Below, piece by piece: positions 38,241-41,086 of a DNA stretch of 41,086 bases. Source of the stretch: an uncultured Verrucomicrobiota bacterium (GTDB taxonomy: Bacteria > Verrucomicrobiota > Verrucomicrobiia > Limisphaerales > CAIQOK01); NCBI GenBank assembly GCA_903873415.1, contig CAIQOK010000176.1, positions 1 to 41,086 on the forward strand, read 5' to 3'. The notes below the pieces were generated by a model. That model saw only the letters and a list, made by a program, of their open reading frames with translations. It did no database searches and was not told the origin of the DNA. Position 1 is the first letter of the stretch. Each line of letters begins with the position of its first letter. Position numbers and translations under genes: made by a program.

Positions 38241-38798
38241 CTACGGACTGCTCAGTCGGAAGAACAAATTCCCCGACGCCTGCTTGATCGTAACACTACT
38301 AATGCCGTTGGCGGTGGTCACTGTAAATCCGCTCCCCACCCAGCCACCCGGGTTAGCCGGGTTCGCGTTCTGTTGCAATGTGTAGCTCCCCGTTGCGGGC
38401 CACGAGATGGTGACACTGTTCCCGCCATGCGTCAGGGTCAGGTTGGACAGGCCTGCGGTCTGGATCACCTGAATAAGAGACCAAAAACCACCCGTAAGGG
38501 AATAGATCCCGCCAGACATGGATGCGGCGGCATCCGGCTGACCGAGGGTGCCGCTGACTTGGTATACACCGCCCGTGCTAGTCCCACCCCCGCCGGCAAT
38601 CTTGTAGTAGTCCACCGAGTAGGTCTGGGCTGAAGCGAAACAGCTGAAAGTAAAAAGGAGAAAACAGAAAAGGAACAGTTGCGTGAAGACACCGACACAC
38701 ACGAGTCGGGCGTGGACTCCGTTGCGCGGCCCGGCGGGCAATGGAATGCCAGCCCTGCCTTCCAATCCATCCGTCACCTTAATTTCTTTTATCTTCAT
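38241..38798 (-). CDS. Secreted protein with C-terminal small beta-rich domain
   Basis: Predicted exported protein of 185 residues. The N-terminus is long and basic (about 35 residues, starting MKIKEIKVTDGLEGRAG), followed by a strongly hydrophobic helix (about 36-56, QLFLFCFLLFTFSCFASA) ending in an A-S-A signal-peptidase site. The mature part begins QTYSVDYYKIAGGGGTSTGG, has VSGTLGQPDAA and LTGGFWS, then LTLTHGGNSVTISWPATGSYTLQQ and ends LFFRLSSP. The last about 85 residues resemble a small C-terminal domain seen on many Verrucomicrobiota surface proteins (from memory). ATG 38798 has an agaggg site before it; the frame is open further upstream. The 5' part is repeated upstream at 38953-39182. 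Function unknown. Confidence 0.7.
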   Translation of the reverse strand: MKIKEIKVTDGLEGRAGIPLPAGPRNGVHARLVCVGVFTQLFLFCFLLFTFSCFASAQTYSVDYYKIAGGGGTSTGGVYQVSGTLGQPDAAASMSGGIYSLTGGFWSLIQVIQTAGLSNLTLTHGGNSVTISWPATGSYTLQQNANPANPGGWVGSGFTVTTANGISSVTIKQASGNLFFRLSSP

Positions 38799-38870
38799 TT
38801 TGCCCTCTTGATTAGGGGTTTGTTCAGAAACGAAGGCGCGCAGACTTCGCCGGGATCTCCTGACTTCTGG
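38641..38870. repeat. Direct repeat copy A (leader and signal peptide of the secreted protein)
   Basis: This 230-bp segment aligns without gaps to 38953-39182 at an offset of exactly 312 bp. Well-conserved anchors are ccttccaatccat (38758 and 39070) and aatttctttt. In minus-strand orientation the copy covers the upstream leader, the ATG at 38798 and the codons up to the end of the signal peptide. Confidence 0.85.
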
Positions 38871-38936
38871 CACCGGACTGCCTGAGCAAACCGGTAAGGG
38901 CGCACACGCCACCCCTAGCTAGCCAAGGAACGCTGA

Positions 38937-39110
38937 TTATCCTATAACAGCCCACTGAAGACCCAAAGCCGAAAATGGAAAGCAGAACAACCGCGCAGAA
39001 ACGCCGATGCACAAGGGCCGGGCGCGGACTCCATTCTGCGCCGCGACGGGCAACGCAGTGCCCACGCTGCCTTCCAATCCATCTTTGACTTGAATTTCTT
39101 TTGTTTCCAT
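38937..39110 (-). pseudogene. Truncated paralogue of the secreted-protein N-terminus
   Basis: A 57-residue frame starting METKEIQVKDGLEGSVG parallels the first residues of the neighbouring secreted protein (MKIKEIKVTDGLEGRAG) through LCIGVSARLFCF and then ends after LGLQWAVIG. The mature domain is absent. It may be a remnant of a lost tandem gene, a small peptide, or just the translated part of a repeated leader element. The upstream sequence is conserved about as well as the coding part, which argues against a simple coding constraint. Confidence 0.6.
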
Positions 39111-39182
39111 TTTGCAATCTTGATCCGGGATTTTATCCGAAACTACGGCGTGCAGGCTTCGCGGGGATCTTCTAGCTGCGGA
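38953..39182. repeat. Direct repeat copy B (diverged second leader)
   Basis: Second copy of the 230-bp segment, diverged by many substitutions but without indels by eye. It carries the equivalent ATG at 39110. Similarity stops at about the point where the signal peptide ends in copy A; the mature-protein part is missing. Confidence 0.85.
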
Positions 39183-39329: not shown

Positions 39330-40670
39330 ATGCCTACTAAAAGACGGATTTATCCCGCACTTCTAGCGTTACTCTGGTGTCTGGCTCCACTCCCCAAGAC
39401 CCGAGCAGGGTTGCCTGAGAAGCCGAACCTGATCTTCATCCTCTGCGACGACCTCAGCATGGGTGACCTCGGCTGCTTCGGCCAAAAGAAGATTCAGACG
39501 CCCAACATCGACCGGATGGCCACCGAGGGAACACGTTTCACACAGCTCTACAGCGGGACGAGCGTCTGCGCTCCGGCCCGATGTTCATTGATGACCGGCC
39601 TGCACCTCGGGCATGCGGCGATCCGGGCAAACCGTGAGCTCAAGCCCGAGGGACAGTATCCGCTGCCATCAGGCACTTTCACCGTGGCGCAACTCCTCAA
39701 GAGCGCCGGATACACCACCGCCTGCATTGGCAAGTGGGGACTGGGCATGTTCGACACCACCGGCTCCCCGCTGAAGCTTGGATTTGACCATTTCTACGGC
39801 TACAACTGTCAGCGCCATGCCCACGATTACTTTCCGACCTATCTCTACAATGAGTCAGTCCGCTTTCCGCTGGACGGAAAAACCTATTCGCAAAACCTGA
39901 TCGCCGACGACGCGATCGCTTGGGTAAGGAAGTCCAGAAGCCAGCCCTTTTTCCTCTATTACGCCATTACCCTCCCGCATGCCAATTATGAGATCGACGA
40001 CCTCGGCATCTATGCAAACCGGGATTGGGCGAAAGTGGAGAAGACTTATGCAGCCATGGTTACCCGACTCGATAGGGATGTGGGCAGACTTCTCGGGCTG
40101 CTCAAGGAACTAAAACTCGACGAGAAGACCCTGGTCATCCTGAGCGCCGGGGACAACGGTTCCGCCTTCGATCCGAAGTCCGGGCCCGGGACCTTTTTCG
40201 CCCAATCCCACGGGCTGCGAGGTGCCAAGCGCACAATGTATGAAGGGGGGTTGCGCCAAGGCGGAATTGTCTGCTGTCCCGGCATTGTGCCGGCCGGCAG
40301 AGTGAGCGACGAGCCCTGGGCTTTCTGGGATTTCCTCCCCACCGCCGCCCAATTGTCCGGCGCACCGCTGCCGGCCGGCAGGCATTTCGACGGCTATTCC
40401 GTGGTGCCGCTTCTGACGGGCGGCGCTGCGCCCGAGCGGAATTTTTTCTACTGGGAACTGCACGAACCCCATTTCATGCAAGCCTTGCGGTCGGGCGATT
40501 GGAAAATCGTCAAGCCCTCGCCTCAAAACCCCGCGGAGCTTTATGACCTCCGGCACGATCCCGGCGAACGAACCAATCTGGCCGGCCGTGAACCAGATCG
40601 GCTCAAGCAGCTCACCAAGCTCATGGTTGGGGCCCGGGTGAATTCGCCCGACTGGCACACGCAGCCGTGA
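39330..40670 (+). CDS. Secreted sulfatase (formylglycine-dependent arylsulfatase family)
   Basis: Predicted exported hydrolase of sulfate esters, 446 residues, with a signal peptide of about 26 residues (ALLALLWCLAPLPKTRAG). Alkaline-phosphatase-like fold: NLIFILCDDLSMGDLGCFG carries the metal aspartates (D40, D41). The formylglycine motif C80-A-P-A-R84 in GTSVCAPARCSLMTG is intact, then TACIGKWGLGMF with the conserved lysine, and VILSAGDNGSAFD with the Asp-Asn metal ligands. The C-terminal part has DGYSVVPLLTG and ELYDLRHDPGERTNLA, as in arylsulfatase A-like enzymes. It needs a sulfatase-maturating enzyme encoded elsewhere. The sulfated substrate (for example an algal or host glycan) is unknown. 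Confidence 0.93.
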   Translation: MPTKRRIYPALLALLWCLAPLPKTRAGLPEKPNLIFILCDDLSMGDLGCFGQKKIQTPNIDRMATEGTRFTQLYSGTSVCAPARCSLMTGLHLGHAAIRANRELKPEGQYPLPSGTFTVAQLLKSAGYTTACIGKWGLGMFDTTGSPLKLGFDHFYGYNCQRHAHDYFPTYLYNESVRFPLDGKTYSQNLIADDAIAWVRKSRSQPFFLYYAITLPHANYEIDDLGIYANRDWAKVEKTYAAMVTRLDRDVGRLLGLLKELKLDEKTLVILSAGDNGSAFDPKSGPGTFFAQSHGLRGAKRTMYEGGLRQGGIVCCPGIVPAGRVSDEPWAFWDFLPTAAQLSGAPLPAGRHFDGYSVVPLLTGGAAPERNFFYWELHEPHFMQALRSGDWKIVKPSPQNPAELYDLRHDPGERTNLAGREPDRLKQLTKLMVGARVNSPDWHTQP

Positions 40671-40952
40671 AAACAACCGGCCGCCAATTGACAGCAAACC
40701 GGATGTGGCCGTTAATCTAGGCGAGTGGGAACGTTAGAAGCATACTCTTGCAGCACAACACCGAGCTGCAAAGCACAGGATCTTTAACATGGACTAAACA
40801 TTCCGGTGAAAGGACTGAACATGCCCAACGCAGCAAGGAACTCATTTCAGACAGACACAGAGCTCAACGATGGATCGTTTCGCTGCGATCCCCGGGCGCC
40901 GGTGTAAATTTCTTTCTGTAAATTGCTTTCTTTCCCTGCTGCTTCGCCCCTT
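40671..40952. other. Intergenic region between sulfatase and transposase fragment
   Basis: No gene is seen. The sequence holds a short tandem repeat at 40904-40931 and otherwise nothing recognisable; no clear terminator for the sulfatase gene was found. Confidence 0.5.
40904..40931. repeat. Two tandem 14-bp repeats
   Basis: gtaaatttctttct is followed at once by gtaaattgctttct, one mismatch. It lies about 20 bp before the transposase fragment and may be part of the end of that element. Confidence 0.7.
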
Positions 40953-41086
40953 TGGGGTGATGGCAAGCGCAGCCTGCTCGGCGTTAGCGTCGCGCTCAGC
41001 GAGGCGGAGGTCCACTGGCGGGCCTTCTTTCAAAGCCTCGTTCAGCGCGGCCTCTGCGGGGTCAAGCTCATCACCAGCGACGATCA
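40953..41086 (+). pseudogene. IS256/mutator-family transposase fragment (runs off the window)
   Basis: The frame encodes WGDGKRSLLGVSVALSEAEV followed by HWRAFFQSLVQRGLCGVKLI and TSDD at the edge. This matches the middle of mutator-type transposases, where a G-x-x-x-D-G-x-R-x-x-L-G segment precedes W-x-x-F-L-x-x-L-x-x-R-G-L-x-G-V-x-L-V-x-S-D; the final aspartate is a catalytic DDE residue. Upstream codons in this frame do not look like the N-terminal half of such a protein, which normally has about 180-190 residues before this point, so the copy seems to be 5'-truncated or internally deleted. The 3' part is outside the window. Confidence 0.72.

Follow-up and report, generated by a model that had tools for sequence, protein, structure and literature searches.

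A duplicated gene start beside a sulfatase gene

We analysed a window of 41,086 nucleotides (the whole stretch of DNA under study) from an uncultured Verrucomicrobiota bacterium whose genome assembly (G000; 3.8 Mb, 97.8% complete) also defines the scope of our searches for further repeat pairs and for RAYT genes. Towards the end of the window lie a gene for a small predicted secreted protein (copy A), a truncated and diverged second version of the 5' end of that gene (copy B) and, adjoining copy B, a divergent sulfatase gene (Table 1).

Table 1. Features of the repeat pair and its surroundings (window positions; L030 is the reference REP dimer described in the text)
Feature	Position	Strand	Basis
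Gene of copy A, encoding P0001 (predicted secreted, 185 aa)	38241..38798	-	ORF
Repeat unit copy A: leader, ATG and first ~40 codons	38680..38870	-	Ungapped match to B at +312
Degenerate GTAG-type REP dimer of copy A (units oppositely oriented)	38705..38758	-	45/54 to L030 dimer
Unique spacer between units A and B	38871..38991	.	blastn against surroundings: chance matches only
Truncated ORF (stub) of copy B, 57 codons	38937..39110	-	Likeness to A ends about codon 47
Repeat unit copy B	38992..39182	-	Ungapped match to A
Equivalent REP dimer in copy B	39017..39070	-	43/54 to L030 dimer
Divergent sulfatase gene adjoining copy B (context)	39330..40670	+	Pfam PF00884, E 3.9e-50

A preliminary description of this DNA had reported two segments that align without gaps at an offset of exactly 312 bp. 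This pair is real, with copy B lying upstream of copy A: blastn within the same genome aligns 38689-38861 with 39001-39173 (173 bp, 76% identity, E 2.6e-30), and identity per 20-bp bin stays at 70-85% across 38700-38859. Over the full unit, identity is about 71-75%. Below ~38680 it falls to background (35% at 38640-38659 and 50% at 38660-38679), and the unit is therefore ~190 bp long rather than the ~230 bp first given. Each unit comprises a leader, an ATG and ~40-47 codons, and the motif M-x-x-K-E-I-x-V-x-D-G-L-E-G was found in both copies, as described. Leader and coding part are also, as had been noted, conserved to a similar degree, with differences at 19 of 72 positions (26%) in the former and at 44 of 141 (31%) in codons 1-47. 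Such a near-even spread is as expected for the mostly neutral drift of a duplicate. A blastn comparison of the 121-bp spacer between the units with its surroundings detected no relic of a mature part of copy B.

The core of the repeat is probably a REP dimer read in frame

The middle of the repeat contains a double-hairpin palindrome that is absent from the preliminary description. More specifically, copy A reads GCAG-GGCTGGCA-TTCCAT-TGCCCGCC-GG-GCCGCGCA-ACGGAG-TCCACGCC-CGAC and copy B reads GCAG-CGTGGGCA-CTGCGT-TGCCCGTC-GC-GGCGCAGA-ATGGAG-TCCGCGCC-CGGC. A perfect dimer of this kind, L030, occurs in another genome of the class (G162) and reads GTAG-GGCGGGCA-GTCCCT-TGCCCGCC-GC-GGCGCGGA-ACGGAG-TCCGCGCC-CTAC. 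Both copies have the tag of a GTAG-type REP, here degenerated to GCAG, directly before a short GC-rich stem-loop. In both, the two units stand in opposite orientation, and the outer ends GCAG...CGAC and GCAG...CGGC are degenerate forms of the GTAG...CTAC of L030 (terminal GTAG to GCAG, distal CTAC to CGAC or CGGC).

Pairing is found at 12 of 16 stem positions in copy A (first stem 7/8, second 5/8) and at 14 of 16 in copy B (first stem 7/8 with wobbles, second 7/8), levels reached by 29 and 4 of 20,000 shuffles, respectively. The imperfect stems, and the 29 shuffles that attain the pairing of copy A, would suit a reading of the locus as a plain partial gene duplication, with a GC-rich core of ordinary coding sequence whose likeness to REPs is accidental. 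Against this, copies A and B match L030 in register along 54 bases (45 and 43 identities), compared with 31/54 at the next best same-strand site of the 41-kb window, in a comparison not shaped by either copy except that L030 was discovered through copy A, as a weak match of its leader 'protein' in a class-wide search. We consider a chance resemblance unlikely.

In the frame of copy A the palindrome reads approximately GRAGIPLPAGPRNGVHAR (codons ~14-31), supplying small and basic residues, and this segment is probably an in-frame REP insertion. The finding corrects a tempting reading of the locus: for the greater part, the conserved 'signal-peptide motif' common to the two copies is most likely a hairpin repeat of a type known from bacteria that happens to be read in frame.

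The leader was found in one pair only

The preliminary description had suggested that the repeat could be a dispersed element that supplies various surface proteins with a promoter, a ribosome-binding site and an export signal, and had proposed a search of the whole genome and relatives. That search gave no matches before unrelated secreted genes. Copies A and B form the only pair in G000, whether by DNA, by leader protein or by the DGLEG-coding motif in context; the motif itself has ten other sites in this genome, none of them with the KEIxVxDGLEG context. DNA searches of 57 relatives did not find the leader, and a protein search across 384 class genomes gave no convincing case. A profile of the two copies detected no further leader in 320 genomes of the order, and scanning the GTDB genome contigs of 84,980 species with both P0001 and this profile gave none either. 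There was no match in a plasmid collection and nothing above gathering scores in Rfam. Inspected singly, the best sub-threshold leader matches proved to lie in other frames or to represent either unrelated proteins or REP-like palindromes.

A portable leader would agree with a leader as conserved as the coding part and with the dispersed type of palindrome in its centre. However, the genome holds a single pair with just one downstream gene, none of the searches found another leader, and the dispersed copies have the REP core, not the flanks, in common with copies A and B. We thus reject the dispersed-leader hypothesis at the sensitivity reached and regard it as extremely improbable. What is dispersed here is most likely the ~54-bp REP palindrome that the repeat contains, rather than the leader with its signal peptide. 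Two observations had been named in advance as speaking against a portable leader, namely a pair unique to its genome and a full tandem paralogue at the place of copy B in relatives. The first was made, together with the failure to find the leader in relatives; the second was not seen in the same-genus genome G001, where the site as such is absent rather than vacant. On balance, the outcome mostly counts against a portable leader.

Copy A opens a predicted secreted protein and copy B is a stub

The N-terminus of P0001 consists of a ~58-residue extension plus a signal peptide, ending ...CFASA|QTYS. Judged from the long hydrophobic segment followed by an ASA|Q-like end, the copy A product is predicted to be exported. 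No Pfam or NCBIfam family matched P0001 above its cut-off. Homologues of its mature domain are present in G001 at 71-74% DNA identity; they lie elsewhere in that genome and carry ordinary, shorter signal regions (MNMKKFVLLCALLVPGLLRAQSYSIDWYK... and MKTITCNWLTSFRVHYSFIVLLLLSTNSFQLSTHAQSYSIDWYK...). At two G001 loci (L131 on contig C360 and L132 on contig C88), such homologues (SIDWYKIAGGGGTSTGGV...) stand directly 3' of large reading frames of repetitive sequence (520-630 aa), an arrangement that suggests a recurrent gene pair.

Copy A also has an in-frame GTG at codon 33, downstream of the REP, and translation might start there; the REP in copy A would then be extragenic. An extension of the coding region upstream of the ATG, where the frame is open in both copies, was considered and found no support, as no coding bias was present there (P about 0.45).

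As first described, copy A opens a complete secreted protein, here a predicted one of 185 aa. The copy B match, said to stop near the end of the signal peptide, ends inside the hydrophobic stretch, and the copy B ORF itself has 57 codons. The Shine-Dalgarno-like AGAGGG of copy A is AGATTG in copy B. The alternative of a 'dead tandem gene', also offered in the preliminary description, agrees well with these data: copy B is truncated and diverged, has no mature part, has lost the Shine-Dalgarno-like site and adjoins its parent. The simplest reading is that copy B is a decaying stub that lacks a mature part and has a weakened ribosome-binding site, and we infer that it is non-functional.

We also weighed the possibility that selection maintains copy B, either as a short peptide with a function or as an RNA leader acting in cis; it might, for instance, regulate the divergent sulfatase or copy A. 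Its 57-codon frame is open, its hairpin potential is good, and comparison of copies A and B with simulated substitutions weakly suggests coding constraint in codons 1-47 (BLOSUM P about 0.02), but neither in the 24 upstream codons (P 0.44-0.47) nor in the REP part alone (P 0.35-0.49). Yet the frame is expected to stay open by chance in 33-39% of simulated cases, the differences by codon position (11/14/19) are not far from even, the Shine-Dalgarno-like sequence is gone and no Rfam family scored above its gathering threshold. A functional copy B is accordingly improbable in our judgement. The weak constraint over codons 1-47 may reflect selection on copy A, or the time before copy B was truncated.

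A likely history of the pair

We think it likely that a REP dimer entered the n-region of a signal peptide and that the gene start was later copied locally, with copy B decaying since. In this scheme, a GTAG-type REP dimer (two opposite hairpins, ~54 bp) would first have inserted in frame into the n-region of a small secreted protein. The ~190-bp 5' end of the gene, containing the leader, the start codon, the REP-bearing n-region and the start of the hydrophobic core, would then have been duplicated locally; alternatively, the whole gene would have been duplicated and most of one copy lost. Decay of copy B would have followed. Since the REP occupies the same site in both copies, the local duplication would place the insertion before the duplication. 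With no mature-part relic in the 121-bp spacer, either a partial duplication or a full duplication followed by deletion would account for the locus; as it now stands, the pair is a local partial duplicate.

GTAG REP dimers have been described in Verrucomicrobia, with Opitutus terrae highly enriched (BMC Genomics 2013, PMC3733652). Some dimer partners in that species are only 1-2 bp apart, and intragenic GTAG REPs, of which O. terrae has the most, often sit at the N-terminus of ORFs, for which the authors caution that the true start may lie downstream of the REP (PMC3733652). The dimers of copies A and B resemble those of O. terrae in the tetranucleotide tag, the ~8-bp GC-rich stem with a short loop, the opposite units with a 2-bp spacer, the dispersed relatives and the site in an ORF near the N-terminus. 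They differ in that the tag has degenerated to GCAG, the stems are imperfect and the dimers are trapped in a 190-bp local duplication. Like copy A, Rickettsia palindromic elements (RPEs; cited in PMC3733652) are palindromic repeats read in frame as extra amino acids, but they differ in repeat sequence and phylum. Copy B, in turn, resembles a partial tandem duplication or gene-fragment pseudogene in being a truncated, diverged second 5' end that adjoins the parent gene, except that a deletion step is not visible here, there being no mature-part relic between the copies.

The pair is a real but small feature, and its conserved centre is most likely an in-frame REP dimer, an element of a known kind. 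It seems to add one more case of a REP dimer lying in frame, here where a predicted exported protein begins. A broader proposal strikes us as very unlikely, namely that signal peptides of this class can recruit REP dimers as their n-region and that a REP-bearing gene start can be duplicated as a unit through REP-related recombination, REPs thereby contributing to the origin or remodelling of export signals.

Relatives of the REP dimer in the genome and the class

The compact REP dimer is multicopy in G162, where the L030 element has at least 36 matches. Among compact GTAG REP dimers of that genome (L134-L143), the first stems are variable (GGCGGGCA, GGCGGTGA, GGCGGCGA) and the second unit is nearly constant (GGCGCGGA-ACGGAG-TCCGCGCC-CTAC), so that they are heterodimers with one conserved partner. 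In G000 itself, related long-form dimers with a ~40-nt spacer are dispersed over several contigs (C183, C108, C90, C21, C158 and C105), and only the A and B sites were found in the compact form. As A, B and L030 had all contributed to the consensus used as query for this search, its matches to A and B are circular. Copies A and B lack the ~40-nt spacer of the G000 dimers and so come nearer to the compact dimers of another family in the class.

At five of the G000 sites (L073, L074, L075, L081 and L082, at C108:11022, C90:219, C21:95575, C158:80963 and C105:16982, respectively), the repeat is longer than a REP dimer. It consists of a GTAG-type dimer with the ~40-nt spacer, followed by a common 3' flank (CCTGTTTACTTCACACCCATCCCG...CGGTTGCACCATCAGAAA). 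This long dispersed repeat could be a MITE or a REP-associated unit.

No REP-flanked RAYT was found in G000, an assembly that is 97.8% complete. Its only Y1_Tnp (IS200/RAYT-like) match (L144, C172:10036-10380) is flanked by other inverted repeats, which lie around AAAGATGTCGCGCCTACGGCGC, and resembles the TIR-flanked RAYTs ('TIRtrons') of PMC3733652. According to the same study, REPtrons may be absent from species that carry REPs; a RAYT is therefore accessory, a property of the host genome rather than of the repeat.

Genomic neighbourhood

In G001, the sole same-genus genome compared, RNase HII is kept (71% DNA identity), and the 8 kb beside it contain neither copy A, copy B nor the sulfatase gene. 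A 60-bp piece of the window (40901-40960) is 82% identical to G001:C87:615-674, on a contig that also bears an IS256-like transposase reading frame; in translation, the window end appears to be a fragment of such a transposase.
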